Of a stretch of DNA of 64,000 bases, positions 52,043-63,586 are shown one piece after another. How positions within the stretch are numbered: position 1 is the first letter of the stretch; each line of letters starts with the position of its first letter. Source of the stretch: Roseibium sediminis (GTDB taxonomy: Bacteria > Pseudomonadota > Alphaproteobacteria > Rhizobiales > Stappiaceae); contig NZ_VXDB01000001.1 in NCBI RefSeq assembly GCF_008711325.1, positions 248,001 to 312,000 on the forward strand. Reading direction: 5' to 3'. The position numbers and the translations under genes are program-made. The notes under the pieces were generated by a model, which made no database searches, had not been told where the DNA came from, and saw only the letters and a list, made by a program, of their open reading frames with translations.

Positions 52043-53089
52043 TCACCCATCCTTGCCGGGAATAAAGGCGTCGAAGGCTGCAAAGAGCTGGTCCCGATAT
52101 CTGTCTTTTTCCATCAGGATTTCATGCGCGGCTCCGGGAATCTCCAGATACCCCGCCGCCGCCGTTCGTGAGCAGAAATCCTCAATGGCAGGCGTCGAGA
52201 CAATGCGGTCATGCCCTGCGGCAACAATCAGGCTAGGCAGTTTCATGGACGGCCCGAATTCCCGGGCATTCAGCTGCGCCATGCAATTGGCCGCAGCCTT
52301 GACCCATCCGATGGTCGGCGCTCCGATCCCAAGTTCCGGAGATTGGCGCAAGACCTCGTTGAACCGCTTGAAACGCGCAGGATCGGATGTCTGCAGGTTC
52401 GTCTCGAAGCTCACATGGAGCTCGGCCTTGCCCCCTGGAATGAAGGTGCGACCCAGCCCGAGAAGACAAAGCAGCCGAGCCAAAGGAAACGCGAAACGCT
52501 CGATCGCCGTCGACGGCGCGCCCATACGCCGTTCAGAATAGTCTTCTTCATGACGACCGAGGCTCAGGACCTTCCGCAAGAAGCGCAAGGGAGCCAGCAA
52601 TCGCCCTTCATGCCCGCTTCTTGGGAAAGCCAGCAGCGGCGCAGTGATGACAGCCCGGTCAAGCATTGTGCGAAGTCGAGCGGTATCGGACAGAAGAATC
52701 GCCCCGCCGGTTGAGTGAGCCAGGGCAAAATGAGGACCGGGATACTCGGCGAGCGAAACCTGTTTGAGGACCGTTCTGAGATCGTCCCGATACTGTCCGA
52801 AATCCGAAACGTGTCCTTTTCTCGGATTGCGGGTCAACCTGTCCGATCCACCCTGCCCTCGCCAGTCAAACGTGATCACGGCAAAGCCGCGGCCACGTAG
52901 ATCCGAAATCACTTCAAAGTATTTTTCGATGAATTCCGCCCGCCCCTGAAGGACGGTCACAGTGCCGTGGCGCACCGGACCAAGAGCCGGCCAATGTGCG
53001 TAGCGCAACCTGACACCGTCGGATGCTTTCACATATCCGCAGACCGCATCGGCGGGAATCGGATTGTCGGGATGATCGATCAGCTTCAT
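52043..53089 (-). CDS. Alpha/beta-hydrolase, monoacylglycerol-lipase/lysophospholipase type
   Basis: 348 residues with the nucleophile elbow AHSTGGAIL (Ala in place of the usual first Gly), the oxyanion segment LQGRAEFIEKYFEV and a C-terminal GAAHEILMEKDR histidine loop. FDWRGQGGSDR is the family D-x-R-G-x-G-x-S equivalent. Probable cytosolic lipase or phospholipase. Convergent with hisN, 7 bp apart. Confidence 0.85.
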   Translation of the reverse strand: MKLIDHPDNPIPADAVCGYVKASDGVRLRYAHWPALGPVRHGTVTVLQGRAEFIEKYFEVISDLRGRGFAVITFDWRGQGGSDRLTRNPRKGHVSDFGQYRDDLRTVLKQVSLAEYPGPHFALAHSTGGAILLSDTARLRTMLDRAVITAPLLAFPRSGHEGRLLAPLRFLRKVLSLGRHEEDYSERRMGAPSTAIERFAFPLARLLCLLGLGRTFIPGGKAELHVSFETNLQTSDPARFKRFNEVLRQSPELGIGAPTIGWVKAAANCMAQLNAREFGPSMKLPSLIVAAGHDRIVSTPAIEDFCSRTAAAGYLEIPGAAHEILMEKDRYRDQLFAAFDAFIPGKDG

Positions 53090-53196
53090 TCAGGCTTCGC
53101 ACGAAACTCAGGTGATTCAGTGATATCCCCTGCAGCCTTCCCCCACAAGCGCGTTGGGCGCAATCTGTCTGGCCGATTGCGCCCATCAAGAACCTT

Positions 53197-53649
53197 TTAC
53201 CAACGGTAGCTCCATTCGAAGCTGCCGCCCGGGCCGCCGCGACCACCCCCATGGTGGATGGGCTTGCGCCGCAGGATTTCTGCAGTCCGCGCATCAACAA
53301 CAAGTTTGACCGGATGCCCGCGCCAACCAATGGCATGAACGATATAGGCTCCACGACGGCGATCAACGATATCAATCGCGCGGAAACCCCGATGGCGCAG
53401 GCTTCTACGAATCTGCCGCGGGTGCAGGGGACGGGCTTCCGAGCCGCCGTCATGCCAGCCGGGGCGACCCCGGCGATCGCGATAGTCGACATCCTGCGTT
53501 GCGGATGCACCCTTCTTGGCAACGGTTACATACGGCGAAGGGCTCAACTGCATCGGCGATGCAGCCTGTACCTGGGTTGCTCCAAGGACTGCGCCGGTGA
53601 TCAGCAATCCTGCGAAGAGGGAACGGGCGGCTGTCTGCAAATTGGTCAT
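53197..53649 (-). CDS. Secreted basic PepSY-like protein
   Basis: 150 residues starting MTNLQTAARSLFAG with a signal peptide ending near VQAASP. The mature part is Arg/Gly/His-rich: two beta-alpha units (RSLRHRGFRAIDIVDRRRGAYIVHAIGWRGHPVKLVVDARTAEILRR) resemble a PepSY domain, then a Gly-rich end. GGAG is placed before ATG 53649; the longer frame upstream is not coding. Divergent from ibpA. Confidence 0.75.
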   Translation of the reverse strand: MTNLQTAARSLFAGLLITGAVLGATQVQAASPMQLSPSPYVTVAKKGASATQDVDYRDRRGRPGWHDGGSEARPLHPRQIRRSLRHRGFRAIDIVDRRRGAYIVHAIGWRGHPVKLVVDARTAEILRRKPIHHGGGRGGPGGSFEWSYRW

Positions 53650-53825
53650 GGCTATTCTCCTTCGGTTCGCTTGCCGTTTCCAAGCGTCAAGAAAAGAATA
53701 GGCCTGCCTCCTTGAACCCAACCGGAAGGCATCGTTCATCTGGCGTTCAGCGCATTTTTCCGTCCGCGAAGCACCTCTTGACACGAAAAAAGGGAATACC
53801 CATCTCACAAGAGCGGGCGCCGGAA

Positions 53826-53920
53826 TGCCGGGTCCGCATGAGACTTCACCGGCTTTGCCACTTAATTCGGGAAGCTGGTTGAAACACGTCAGATGTTGCT
53901 CAAGATGAGGACACGAAACC
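53826..53920 (+). promoter_or_regulatory. ROSE-type RNA thermometer in the ibpA leader
   Basis: The last hairpin pairs TGTTGCTCA with TGAGGACA, burying the GAGGA ribosome site at 53907-53911 opposite a UUGCU with one bulged G, the defining ROSE feature. An upstream hairpin (CCGGCTT/AAGCTGG) precedes it. Heating opens the last hairpin and exposes the site, giving translation of the small heat-shock protein. The exact 5' end is not fixed. Confidence 0.7.
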
Positions 53921-54376
53921 ATGCGTCACTTTGATTTCTCACCCCTTTATCGCTCCACCGTTGGCTTTGACCGCCTATTCTCCATGCTGGATGCGAACAC
54001 TTCCGACACACAGACCTATCCGCCGTACAACATTGAGCGGACCGGCGAAAATGCCTACCGGATCACAATGGCAGTCGCAGGATTTGCAGAATCCGATCTG
54101 AATATCGAGGCGAAGGAACACACGCTCACCATCAAGGGCGAAAAGTCCGAGGACAGCGAAAAGGACCGCGAGATCCTTTATCGCGGCATTGCCTCACGCG
54201 CCTTTGAACGCCGCTTCCAGCTCGCGGAATACGTCCGCGTGGAGGGAGCGCACCTGGAAAACGGGTTGCTGCACATTGATCTGGTTCGCGAGCTGCCTGA
54301 AACGATGAAGCCGCGCAAGATCGAGATTGGCAACGGGACTGCGTCTCCCAAGCAGATCGACAACAAGCCGCACTAA
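53921..54376 (+). CDS. ibpA: Hsp20 family small heat-shock protein
   Basis: 151 residues. An alpha-crystallin domain spans about residues 36-130, ending in the conserved A-x-x-x-x-G-L motif seen as [13 protein letters not shown]. Holds unfolded proteins in oligomers. The ATG is 9 nt from the sequestered GAGGA in its leader. A terminator follows. Confidence 0.93.
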
Positions 54377-54428
54377 GCGCTATCCGGCGAAGAATCAGCC
54401 ATACGGGCTGAGAGCTGGCCGAAATCAG

Positions 54429-54461
54429 GGGCGTCCGGTTTTCCGGGCGCCCTTTGTTTTT
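54429..54461 (+). terminator. Rho-independent terminator after ibpA
   Basis: GGGCGTCCGG-TTTT-CCGGGCGCCC (one mismatch) then TTTGTTTTTG. Confidence 0.85.
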
Positions 54462-54464
54462 GTG

Positions 54465-55520
54465 TCAGGACTTCATCAGGTCAAGAAATGCCGTGCAATC
54501 GGCTTCCGTCGTGGCAAAACTGGTCACAAGGCGGATCATCACCTCGTCTTCGGCAGGCTGATCTTCCTGTCGCAAGGAGCCGGTCGGGTATCCATAGAAC
54601 TTGGCGCCGCCCGCTTCCAGTTTTTCAGCCATCGACCGCTTGATGATCGGAAGCAACTCGTTCGCTTCTACCGGCCACGGGAATCTGGCACCTCCAACAG
54701 CATCAATGCCCTGCTTGAGAACCTGTGCCATGGCATTTGAATGCCGCGCAGTATCCAGCCAGTTATCATTTTCGAAATAGCCTTCAAGCTGGGCTGAGAC
54801 GAACCGGCTCTTTGAGAACAGATGTCCGCCGCGCTTGCGGAAATACTCGAAGCCGCGCGCAGCTTCCAGGTCGAAGAAGATAACAGCCTCCGCGCACCAG
54901 CATCCGTTCTTGGTTGCGCCAAAGGACAGAACATCGACACCGGATTTCCAGGTCATTTCGGCAGGCGTCACGCCAAGTGCCACCAGCGCATTGGCAAAGC
55001 GGGCCCCATCCATGTGCAACGGGATCTTGCGGGCTGTCGCCTCGGCCTTGATCGCCGCGATCTCATCAAGTGTGTAGATGGTCCCGCATTCGGTCGCCTG
55101 CGTGATGGAAACGGCAGCGACCTGCCCGTGGTGCACAACACCATCGGGATAGGCCGCCATCTTTTCCCGTAAGGCCTGCGGGGTGATCTTTCCGTTTTCG
55201 CCCGGAACACCAACGATGCGACCACCCGCCGTCATGAATTCCGGACAGCCGCATTCATCCACCTGAATATGCGAATCCTGATGGCCAAAATAGGCGCCAC
55301 CCGGTTTTGCATAGGCGGCCAGCGCCAGAGAATTGGCAGCAGTCCCCGTGCCGACATAATAGACGGCAACATCCCGCTCGAAAATCTCGGCGAACCGCTT
55401 CGTCATCGCATCGGTGAGCGGATCGGTTCCGTAACCGGAGGCAACGCCGGTATTGTGACGGGCAAGGGCCGCCATCACGGCGGCTGTTGCACCAGTCCAG
55501 TTATCACTCGCAAAGTTCAT
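54465..55520 (-). CDS. ltaE: Low-specificity L-threonine aldolase
   Basis: 351-residue PLP enzyme cleaving threonine to glycine and acetaldehyde. The PLP lysine is Lys204 in SFGATKNG, with Asp171 in HMDGARFAN binding the cofactor nitrogen, and GTAANSLAL near residue 60 for phosphate. Downstream of the buf operon on the same strand with a 46-bp gap and no visible terminator, so read-through is possible. Confidence 0.92.
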   Translation of the reverse strand: MNFASDNWTGATAAVMAALARHNTGVASGYGTDPLTDAMTKRFAEIFERDVAVYYVGTGTAANSLALAAYAKPGGAYFGHQDSHIQVDECGCPEFMTAGGRIVGVPGENGKITPQALREKMAAYPDGVVHHGQVAAVSITQATECGTIYTLDEIAAIKAEATARKIPLHMDGARFANALVALGVTPAEMTWKSGVDVLSFGATKNGCWCAEAVIFFDLEAARGFEYFRKRGGHLFSKSRFVSAQLEGYFENDNWLDTARHSNAMAQVLKQGIDAVGGARFPWPVEANELLPIIKRSMAEKLEAGGAKFYGYPTGSLRQEDQPAEDEVMIRLVTSFATTEADCTAFLDLMKS

Positions 55521-55566
55521 GACAATCGGTGTAGGTCACCCCGTTCGAACGAAGCAAGTGCTCTGT

Positions 55567-56151
55567 TCAATAATACTGTTCCCGCTTGCGATAATAGGCG
55601 TCCAGCAAACTGTCGACCGACAGGAAGCCAGCCCCTTTCAGCATCGGCACCATCAGCAGGAAGATCCACAAAAGCCGATCATCTGAGATCACGCTGTAAG
55701 GGTCGCCGTCAAACAGCGCCCCGATGGTCTTGGCGTCAGCCCCGTGACCCGTGACATCGACATAGGACATCACGACGATGAAGACGATCATTCCCAAGCT
55801 CGCCGCCCGAGTAAACAGACCAATCACCACCAGTGCAGGCAGGATGAATTCAGCCCAGGTGCCCAAAAGGACGATCAGACCGTAAGGAAAGAAGGCAATC
55901 TGGCTGATATCGTAGCTGACTTCTTCCATCATCAACGGAAACATCTGCGCATAGGCACCTGCTCCCGGAGCGAAAATGTTCATGAAACTGCCGTCGATCT
56001 TGGTCATCGCCGAGTTCCAGAAGAAAACCAGCAGCACGGACGCAAAGATCGCTCTGGCGGTGACCCCCAGAAACCAGCCATCGGTCAGCCTCTCCAGCAG
56101 TCCGAAAATGCCGTTATAGAGCCGATAAAACACCCCAATCAAACCACTCAT
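55567..56151 (-). CDS. bufD: DoxX-family membrane protein of the bufferin operon (BufD)
   Basis: 194 residues with four hydrophobic segments in the DoxX pattern (LVFFWNSAMTKIDGSF…, then a C-terminal helix LLWIFLLMVPMLKGAG). It lies 49 bp after bufC as the last gene of the cassette. In other bufferin loci the DoxX protein is the fourth gene; its role is not defined. Confidence 0.8.
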   Translation of the reverse strand: MSGLIGVFYRLYNGIFGLLERLTDGWFLGVTARAIFASVLLVFFWNSAMTKIDGSFMNIFAPGAGAYAQMFPLMMEEVSYDISQIAFFPYGLIVLLGTWAEFILPALVVIGLFTRAASLGMIVFIVVMSYVDVTGHGADAKTIGALFDGDPYSVISDDRLLWIFLLMVPMLKGAGFLSVDSLLDAYYRKREQYY

Positions 56152-56200
56152 TTCGCCTCCACGCAGCTGTCTCTGTCTTTAATTCTGATTGCAGCCTAGC

Positions 56201-56965
56201 TCACATCAGAGCGGCAAACGCCCCTGTTTTCAAGGCATCAGCCAGATTTTCAGAAAGATCAAAGCCCTCATTGGCCTCAAGAGCCATCGATGCAGCGCTA
56301 CCCAGCGCCTCACCGTCCAGCAGGGCTTTGAAAAACACATCTCCTCCTGCTCGCAGGGCAGTCAGCGCCACATCCACATCCGGGCGCGTTACAAGAACTG
56401 CCTCCCCCGAGGCCATATCGACCGGCTTGTTCGACCCGACAGAAAAACGGTTCGCTTCGACAAGCGTATGAATTGGCCAGAGTGAGCTGAGGAGTTGAGT
56501 GGCTGGATGAGCCTGAAACCTTGCTTCTGGCAGTTCTTCCGTCGGCAAACTGCCAAGCACGGCGGGGTCCAGCGGGGCAGCATCTGCGCTATGATAAGAA
56601 ACCAGCCAGCTCCATTCGAGCCGAGCCACATCACCAAGATAAGGATAATCGGCGAGCGGGGGAAACGCATCGATAAAGCTCGGGAAATCGCCACCGTACC
56701 AGAGCATCACCGCAGAAGTCGGAGGGTGCTGTGTCACGAATTCTCTCGCGAGGGCCGTGAAATACTCCTCGCCGACCAAGTTCTGGATAGCCGGATACGT
56801 GGCCGCCATCGCTTCGCAAAGGCTCACCACCACATTATTGCGGTAGACGTTGAAGCGTTTGGGAGCAGGTTGACCATCCGGACCAACAACACCTTCCGGC
56901 ACCGGCACATTCGCGGATAACAACGCATCACCAAATGTGTCTGAAAACCCCCGACTGGCTGGCAT
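56201..56965 (-). CDS. bufC: DUF2063 / BufC-type partner protein
   Basis: 254 residues. The N-terminal DUF2063 (HvfC/BufC) domain contains FNVYRNNVVVSLCEAMAATYPAIQNLVG, typical of the partner that binds the RiPP precursor and MNIO enzyme. The start lies 1 bp after the bufB stop, implying translational coupling. Confidence 0.85.
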   Translation of the reverse strand: MPASRGFSDTFGDALLSANVPVPEGVVGPDGQPAPKRFNVYRNNVVVSLCEAMAATYPAIQNLVGEEYFTALAREFVTQHPPTSAVMLWYGGDFPSFIDAFPPLADYPYLGDVARLEWSWLVSYHSADAAPLDPAVLGSLPTEELPEARFQAHPATQLLSSLWPIHTLVEANRFSVGSNKPVDMASGEAVLVTRPDVDVALTALRAGGDVFFKALLDGEALGSAASMALEANEGFDLSENLADALKTGAFAALM

Positions 56966-56966
56966 G

Positions 56967-57857
56967 TCAGACAGCTTTCCGCAGTGCAGTCGATCCCGCC
57001 CTGCTCAGGATCGCATCCGCGGCCTGCGCTTCTTCCACCAGAACAGGCCAGTTCGGCACATCATTGTCCCACTCAACGAGTGTCGGAATCGGGCCAAAGC
57101 GGGTGATCACATCTTCATAAAGCCGCCAGACTTGTTCATCCACCTTCCGGTCATGCGCATCAATCAGCAGCGGACGACCAAGATCATCCACATCAGGGGC
57201 ATGGCCACCCAGATGGATTTCCTGAACCAATTCCATGGGAAAATCGTGAAGGTAATCTGCCGCGGACCGCTCATGGTTCGTGCAGGAAACATGCACATTG
57301 TTCACGTCCAGCAACAAGCCACATCCCGTCCGCTTTGCAACATCGGCAATGAACTCGATTTCACCCATGGTCGATTGGGCAAAGGCGACATAAGTGGACG
57401 GGTTTTCGAGCAACATCTGCCGCCCGACCTCGTCCTGCACTTCATCAATATGATCACACACGCGGTTCAGCGTTTCGCGAGTATAAGGCACCGGCAACAG
57501 GTCATTGAAAAAGGTCGTGTCATGCGTGGACCACGCCAGATGCTCGGAAAACAATCCCGGTTCGTAGCGTTGATTCAGGCTTTTGAGGCGCGCAAGGTGC
57601 TCGCGGTCCAACGGGCCTTCTCCGCCGATGGACAATCCGACGCCGTGAAGAGAAAGCGGATACTTCTCTCTGATGGCTTCCAGAATGCGATGCGGTGCAC
57701 CGCCTGCCCCCATGTAGTTCTCGGCATGCACTTCAAAGAAGGAAACGCTTCGCACCCGCGACAGAATTTCAGGCGCATGTTCCGGCTTGAAGCCGACGCC
57801 CGCGCGCGCCGGGATGACATGATCCGCTCCAAATGGCTCGTTTTCACGTGTCGGCAT
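56967..57857 (-). CDS. bufB: MNIO multinuclear iron-dependent oxidase (DUF692, BufB)
   Basis: 296 residues with the TIM-barrel fold of DUF692. Likely iron ligands are the conserved His and Glu in [20 protein letters not shown], the D-x-N-x-x-H block [25 protein letters not shown] and VEWDNDVP. Family members oxidise cysteine side chains of precursor peptides, in bufferins to thiooxazoles. A GGGAGG site precedes the ATG, and an RNA hairpin separates it from bufA. Confidence 0.9.
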
Positions 57858-57889
57858 GTCAATCCTCCCTGCCCCGTCTGGGGTGCGCC

Positions 57890-57911
57890 GGGCGGACCTG
57901 TTGGTCCACCC
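57890..57911 (-). other. Intercistronic hairpin between bufA and bufB
   Basis: On the minus strand GGGTGGACC-AACA-GGTCCGCCC forms a 9-bp stem (one G-U) with no T-run. Placed just after bufA, it is fit to protect the 3' end of a bufA mRNA or limit read-through, raising bufA over bufBCD. Confidence 0.65.
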
Positions 57912-57935
57912 GAAGCAAGTCTAAGAATCCGCGGC

Positions 57936-58259
57936 TTACGCTTCAGGCAGATCGCGATCAAGCTCGGAAAGAGACCCCTTGCGGCCATCCGGCAGGCTGA
58001 AATCACCACCATCGACGCCGAACTTTACGCAATCGCCCTTCGGCACCAGAGTCCAGGCATTGCCCTGATAGTCGACGGTCGACGTTCCAGCGCAGGTCGT
58101 TCCCGGGCCTGCCTTGCAATCATTCTTGCCCTTCAGCGAAACGCCGTAGCACTTTTCCTTCGCCTGGGCGTGGGCCGGGATAGACGCGGACATTCCGGCG
58201 AGAGCGGTAGCAACGGCACCTGCAACGACTGCTGCGGACATGGCCTTGTTTTTCATCAT
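57936..58259 (-). CDS. bufA: Bufferin precursor (DUF2282, BufA)
   Basis: 107 residues with a signal peptide ([23 protein letters not shown]), then a small Cys-containing domain. Cysteines are at about 37, 48, 56 and 77, arranged EKCYG…NDCKAG…TTCAGTS…GDCVKF, the spacing of the bufferin BufA1-type precursor whose middle cysteines are modified. Two ATGs (58259, 58256) share the AGAGGAGAA site. It is first in bufABCD. Confidence 0.9.
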
Positions 58260-58837
58260 GTTCTCCTCTGCGAGCGACTAAACTCCTGGTGGCAGACATT
58301 CCCTGACATCTGCCTCACCCCTGAATGTGGTACGCAGCCCTCCGGTTGTGAAATAAAAGCCCGATGACATTACCGCGATCAGACTGTGAGCAATATATCC
58401 GGACGTAATTTAATTTCGCAAACTGACTGAACAGCGATCCTTTCGAATAAATAGAAACACCATTCTGGAACTTATATAATACCCAGCCAAATAATCTCTC
58501 TTGCCCCCGGCAAGGAAACGTGGCATGGTCGCGCCGCTCGGAATAGGACAGGATCACTGTCCCATCTACATCACTTCCTGCAAGTTCTGCCAGTGAAGGA
58601 CATGATATCCGGGCACCAGGCCAAACTGCCACTGGTTGCAGGGCAGGGTCTTTGGGGAACGACGTTTCCCGGCAGCGAAATTATCCACGCTGCGTCAAAG
58701 GGAGCGGTTCGCCTGGAGGCGGCGAGACGTTAAATACTTCGGCAAAGCCACGGCCGACGGCCTGGGTAGTCGCACGAGCCGCGTTTCCGAAAGGAGCGTG
58801 ACCCGAACGGACCCCGGCGCTGTGATGGAGAGTGGCT
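58260..58837. other. Region between bufA and gltB, with an inverted repeat and a doubtful ORF
   Basis: 578 bp. GGCAGA (58291-58296) and TCTGCC (58309-58314) flank an area upstream of bufA, a possible operator or leader hairpin; no match to a known copper-regulator box is clear to me. Composition is AT-richer than the neighbours in 58350-58500. The gltB promoter should be in the right part. Confidence 0.45.
58315..58632 (-). CDS. Hypothetical ORF upstream of bufA, possibly spurious
   Basis: 105 codons from a GTG, no recognisable domain or signal peptide. Amino-acid composition is plausible (three Cys, aromatic-rich end SKGSLFSQFAKLNYVRIYC) but the codon use looks unlike its neighbours, and the ORF overlaps the area needed for the bufA promoter. 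I give it low weight. Confidence 0.25.
   Translation of the reverse strand: MAVWPGARISCPSLAELAGSDVDGTVILSYSERRDHATFPCRGQERLFGWVLYKFQNGVSIYSKGSLFSQFAKLNYVRIYCSQSDRGNVIGLLFHNRRAAYHIQG

Positions 58838-63586
<4,749 letters not shown>

Follow-up and report, generated by a model that had tools for sequence, protein, structure and literature searches.

A chromosomal operon of probable Buf1 bufferin type between gltB and a threonine aldolase gene in Roseibium sediminis

Gene content of the locus

The window analysed here is a stretch of 64,000 nucleotides from Roseibium sediminis, in which four uninterrupted open reading frames on the minus strand, free of stops and frameshifts and with coordinates unchanged from their first reading, lie between gltB and ltaE (Table 1). 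The first-pass annotation had described a row of four genes for a DUF2282 precursor, a DUF692/MNIO oxidase, a DUF2063 partner and a DoxX protein, and the ORFs and Pfam confirmed all four; in the profile search that it proposed, every protein exceeded its curated Pfam cut-off (E = 2e-23 for DUF2282, 1.1e-106 for MbnB_TglH_ChrH, 2.4e-25 for DUF2063 and 3.9e-06 for DoxX). BufA reached 82.5 bits (cut-off 22.4) and BufC 89.1 bits, while BufD passed narrowly with 27.8 bits against a cut-off of 23.6.

Table 1. Features of the buf locus and its surroundings (window coordinates)
Feature	Position	Strand	Details
Palindrome GGACAG-N5-CTGTCC	58546-58562	.	gltB-bufA intergenic; conserved
bufA, DUF2282 Buf1 precursor	58259-57936	-	107 aa; PF10048; Cys37/48/56/77
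bufB, MNIO (DUF692) bufferin maturase	57857-56967	-	296 aa; NCBIfam NF050167
bufC, DUF2063 partner, PME-type 1 length	56965-56201	-	254 aa; Pfam PF09836
bufD, DoxX-family membrane protein	56151-55567	-	194 aa; Pfam PF07681
ltaE, L-threonine aldolase-like PLP enzyme	54465-55520	-	PF01212; 46 bases after bufD

BufB belongs with the MNIO enzymes that act as bufferin maturases: it scored 386.9 bits on the NCBIfam equivalog "MNIO family bufferin maturase" (curated cut-off 310) and stayed under the cut-offs of the HvfB (239.6 bits, cut-off 360), ApyH, MbnB and ChrH models; its score of 47.2 bits on TIGR04159 (cut-off 325) places it apart from the MbnB enzymes that define methanobactin systems. The other NCBIfam matches were all sub-threshold, namely BufA on the BufA2 model (its sole match, 22.9 bits, far under the cut-off of 60), BufC on HvfC and BufD on the HvfX family (26 bits, cut-off 80). 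Since these models cover sister families, such scores may be what a Buf1 cluster should give, although they do not count as positive evidence for one.

BufA is a DUF2282 precursor with four conserved cysteines, at residues 37, 48, 56 and 77 (C-10-C-7-C-20-C), and its N-terminus, judged by eye, resembles a signal peptide, with a K-rich start, a hydrophobic run and an AHA|Q-like site. Among 80 named loci, which are the best 80 of 572 BufB relatives and not a random sample, all 80 precursors contain exactly four cysteines and 78 have the 10-7-20 spacing, the other two having 10-6-20, so that the earlier likening of the spacing to that of bufferins is borne out. A Buf2 precursor would have six or twelve conserved cysteines, where BufA has four, and the EGKCG repeats that mark the Oxazolin/Buf_EGKCG type are absent from its sequence. 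The stretch after the fourth cysteine (57936-58028) is longer in this 107-residue protein than in the 99-101-residue precursors of the nearest Roseibium and Labrenzia loci (L003-L014). No significant PDB match was obtained with the BufA sequence, and the predicted model, being mediocre (mean pLDDT 73.6), was left out of the conclusions.

The order bufA-bufB-bufC on one strand was found in all 80 named loci (best 80 of 572), with about 1 kb separating B and C in five of them, and a same-strand bufD match accompanies 46; the window operon has this arrangement, bufABC followed by the doxX gene that is usual for it.

Conserved residues and the partner protein

Residue conservation was assessed on 81 BufB, 81 BufC and 47 BufD sequences, window included, after a filter designed to drop proteins no longer than 120 aa and those containing internal stops. 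Nine BufB residues (H71, H106, E151, D184, N187, H215, D233, H235 and E262) are identical in 81/81 sequences, and for that reason the claim of intact iron-ligand blocks in the oxidase holds; apart from the counterparts of site 3, the members of this His/Asp/Glu/Asn set are putative iron ligands, assigned by motif. From the D-x-x-N and D-x-H spacing, N187, D233 and H235 are the putative counterparts of HvfB N175, D242 and H244, at each of which a change to alanine is reported to inactivate the enzyme (PMC13419390). BufB also matched PDB entry 3bww (E = 2e-40). A second, more distant MNIO with 40-41% identity to BufB occurs in four of the genomes compared (G015, G017, G024 and G025).

With its 254 residues and its PF09836 match, BufC has the size and family of the DUF2063-RRE partners (about 250-260 residues), the RRE half of this assignment being the weaker because it is based on fold matches to TglHI and on non-significant matches to TbiB1 (E of 1.3 or more). 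Its AlphaFold model (alignment of 62 sequences) has a mean pLDDT of 94.5, and the only fold matches at E of 0.001 or less were the TglHI holoenzyme entries 8hi7 and 8hci (E = 8.7e-06 and 1.3e-05), with modest TM-scores of 0.54-0.63 against TglI; such a fold is the one expected for a partner of an MNIO. The BufC sequence gave no significant match in the PDB. Two alignments, A1 and A2, took 45 and 62 hand-picked sequences of the 81.

Distribution and the neighbouring threonine aldolase

A BufB match was found in 73/87 genomes of the family, the nearest named relatives among the matches listed being Roseibium and Labrenzia loci (L003-L014) with 66-75% BufB identity. On the first listed place per gene per genome, which is the basis of the family tally, bufB lies upstream of ltaE in 71 of these 73 genomes; the genes are on different contigs in G066, and BufB is elsewhere in G084. 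The 14 family genomes with no BufB match are 13 of the 14 genomes of genus g7 and G026, the latter uninformative because its assembly is split into some 980 contigs and has gltB and ltaE on separate ones.

The neighbouring product is supported as an aldolase by two PDB matches, to an entry named aldolase (E = 1.5e-90) and to one named L-threonine aldolase (E = 4.5e-89). The first-pass annotation had placed the operon before a threonine aldolase gene with no clear stop between; the adjacency stands, and the stop is in fact clear, since bufD ends with a TGA at 55569-55567 and the ATG of ltaE follows at 55520. Transcription may plausibly run on from bufD into ltaE, because the gap is only 46 bases and the scan predicted no terminator within it. 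Such an arrangement could be taken to mean that the aldolase itself acts in the pathway and that the true unit is bufABCD-ltaE, and this would agree with the position of bufB upstream of and in line with ltaE in 71/87 family genomes, with a bufD-ltaE gap of 44-48 bases in 10/12 Roseibium and Labrenzia loci (102 and 149 in the remaining two), with the terminator-free gap of the window, and with the five order genomes (5/81) that keep buf followed by ltaE without gltB inside the cut-offs. We nevertheless consider it highly improbable, given what happens where buf is missing: in 13/13 buf-less g7 genomes, which are all the bufB-less family genomes that have both genes on one contig, the pair is still adjacent, with ltaE 619-864 bases from gltB, and in the fourteenth g7 genome, G084, the distance is 708 bases. 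Across the order, ltaE and gltB are no more than 6 kb apart in 19/81 genomes that lack a bufB match, and six more have the same pair with buf elsewhere. Among the named loci (best 80 of 572), ltaE comes after bufD or bufC in 13 (within 2 kb) and before bufA in 16 (within 1 kb), is farther away in one, and gave no match in the flanks of 50. The literature search found no paper that joins threonine aldolase and DUF692, which does not prove its absence from print.

The order tally as a whole comprised 81 genomes, with BufB in 49 and the aldolase in 52 (E of 1e-60 or less) and gltB in 75 (E of 1e-300 or less), the distance limits of 5 kb for buf-gltB and buf-ltaE and 6 kb for ltaE-gltB being our own choice. 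All three genes occur together, with buf before ltaE, in 11/81; buf is near gltB in six others, four with no ltaE match and two with ltaE present at a distance; bufB and ltaE are present yet near neither gltB nor each other in 6/81; buf stands alone in 14, ltaE alone in two, and neither is found in 11. In one fragmented genome (G110), the first of two ltaE matches precedes buf on the same contig and the second lies near gltB. All this is most simply read as an old pairing of gltB and ltaE, in which buf may stand on either side of ltaE. This reading explains least the five genomes with buf and ltaE but without a near gltB: in two of them gltB is on another contig, in a third it lies about 8.9 kb off, in a fourth it is on the same contig but far away, and in the fifth no gltB match passed. 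Since ltaE keeps its place next to gltB in genomes without buf, it is probably a neighbour of gltB and not part of the bufferin pathway, and its candidacy as a bufferin gene was set aside as unlikely.

Regulation and intergenic elements

No match to NrsF (PF06532) was found in the R. sediminis genome, while the Caulobacter positive control was detected, and 86/87 genomes of the family, that of R. sediminis among them, lack NrsF; the SigF-NrsF switch of Caulobacter is therefore absent here. The SigF-NrsF subtype is marked by an NrsF gene and a promoter of the GTAACC-N16-CGAA type, for which the exact core was scanned: GTAACN{15,18}CG has no exact match in the window between 50348 and 60054, the bufA-gltB region included, and a SigF-type promoter for bufA was accordingly dropped. 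The sole NrsF case among the 87 genomes is G084, which has no buf at the gltB site and a bufferin operon elsewhere; its NrsF gene lies about 2 kb from the bufB of that operon, and the arrangement suggests that the operon was gained independently.

A palindrome (Table 1) stood out in the alignment of sequences upstream of bufA as a candidate buf operator and was rejected, being present in buf-less gltB-ltaE regions as well (8/8 sampled from the 13 such g7 genomes); it goes with gltB and not with buf. With up to one mismatch, it occupies the space that separates gltB from the following gene, ltaE or bufA, in 25 of the 30 gltB-near named loci (from the best 80 of 572), a count that leaves out L071, whose gltB match is a distant one of 29% identity, and it is missing from L019, L020, L026, L034 and L038. 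At up to two mismatches it is no commoner than the reversed control (286 vs 344). The exact palindrome has just two occurrences in the genome, one in the gltB-bufA region and one directly upstream of an AzlC/AzlD-type gene pair (L102), and may mark a regulator common to glutamate synthase and amino-acid export.

Upstream of bufA, most of the Roseibium and Labrenzia loci compared also share a sequence resembling GTCACAGGCGTTTGATTTCCTATTTAT, of which the window version (58346-58368) has diverged; this sequence could be the bufA promoter. A search for TATAAT promoters in the relatives' intergenic regions gave no usable result. The Rfam search of 53000-59000 (E of 1 or less) returned only a sub-threshold CsrC match at 54427-54454, which coincides with a terminator-like site after an Hsp20-like gene.

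Discussion

The family models, the spacing of the cysteines, the order of the genes and the conserved residues agree in supporting the identification of a bufferin operon made in the first-pass annotation. We are highly confident that the locus is a chromosomal operon of the Buf1 type, its chemistry and physiology being deduced from characterised relatives. By the same analogy, its four genes would very probably yield a small exported peptide whose cysteines are made into copper-grabbing rings by an iron enzyme. That the locus is undescribed is true for this strain and does not extend to the family, since the family and its models are published and BufB is present in 73/87 family genomes. The same gene set has been described in many bacteria, and the locus is a further example of it, not a new system; a literature search on Roseibium and Labrenzia gave no bufferin or DUF2282 among the matches listed, which is not proof that none is in print.

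The closest parallel is the Buf1 operon of Caulobacter (CC3254-3257, or CCNA_03363-03366), which has the same families in the order DUF2282-DUF692-DUF2063-DoxX. Described as DUF2282-DUF692-hypothetical-DoxX, it is reported to be copper-induced in each medium and cell type tested, and a sigF mutant to be copper-sensitive (PMC8224329). Unlike the Caulobacter operon, which is reported to be controlled by SigF with NrsF as anti-sigma factor, the window operon sits in a genome without NrsF. The rpoE7 (ECF16) operon SMb20530-20527 of Sinorhizobium meliloti likewise has DUF692 and DUF2063 in one unit, and, unlike the operon between gltB and ltaE, is reported to be under an ECF sigma factor (PMC6180224). 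Oxazolin/captophorin hvf and fon clusters share an MNIO plus a DUF2063-type partner that make thiooxazoles, for which an absorbance near 305 nm is given, as reported in PMC12668002; their precursor carries the repeats that BufA lacks, and BufB falls short of the HvfB threshold. The operon of G084 (L091) resembles that of the window in its DUF2282, MNIO, HvfC-like and HvfX-like genes and differs in having genes for an ECF sigma factor and NrsF and in lying on a contig other than that of gltB.

Both the presumed conversion of the middle cysteines to thiooxazoles and the copper role are carried over here from characterised bufferins. The modification in bufferins is reported to be a thiooxazole, and in Buf1 the central cysteines are modified while the outer two form a disulphide (PMC12452194). 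On this model, BufC, with its DUF2063 and RRE-like domains, would bind the BufA precursor in the cytoplasm together with BufB, and BufB, as an iron oxidase, would oxidise Cys48 and Cys56 to thiooxazoles. A disulphide would form between Cys37 and Cys77, the Sec system would export the modified BufA to the periplasm, and the bufferin would there bind surplus copper, with the membrane protein BufD as a putative accessory.

A bufferin may also be made here whose main job is not copper but another metal, or sulphur or oxidative stress with DoxX taking part. The Caulobacter homologues are reported to be induced by chromate and cadmium as well (PMC3511200), and the gig operons of Cupriavidus and Legionella, which are described as bufferin clusters and in this resemble the window operon, are, unlike it, named for their induction by gold (PMC12452194); the genome itself combines the lack of NrsF and of an exact GTAACN{15,18}CG site between bufA and gltB with two Cu-type P1B ATPase matches above cut-off. 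Set against the equivalog match of BufB and the unchanged number and spacing of the BufA cysteines, these points leave a non-copper function rather unlikely. Conservation alone is no proof of a copper role, because a related and conserved MNIO cluster of Microbulbifer reportedly went undetected in the proteome, whether or not copper was present (PMC12538549). The same observation could suggest that bufABCD is a decayed or silent relic, which is hardly credible for four genes without stops or frameshifts, with their catalytic-type and cysteine residues conserved and with BufB so widely retained in the family.

A more speculative proposal, which we regard as very doubtful, is that in this family buf stands fixed in the chromosome beside gltB, free of SigF-NrsF and under another signal, possibly on one transcript with ltaE that ties copper buffering to metabolism; if this were true, the activity of ltaE would link copper buffering to glycine/threonine or glutamate metabolism. 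On the preferred reading as a Buf1-type operon beside an old gltB-ltaE pair, the adjacent threonine aldolase should, as a matter of caution, not be read as a pathway gene. The locus then offers a clean, conserved bufferin case in the Roseibium-like lineage, and because the operon persists in a lineage without NrsF, its control must be sought elsewhere.
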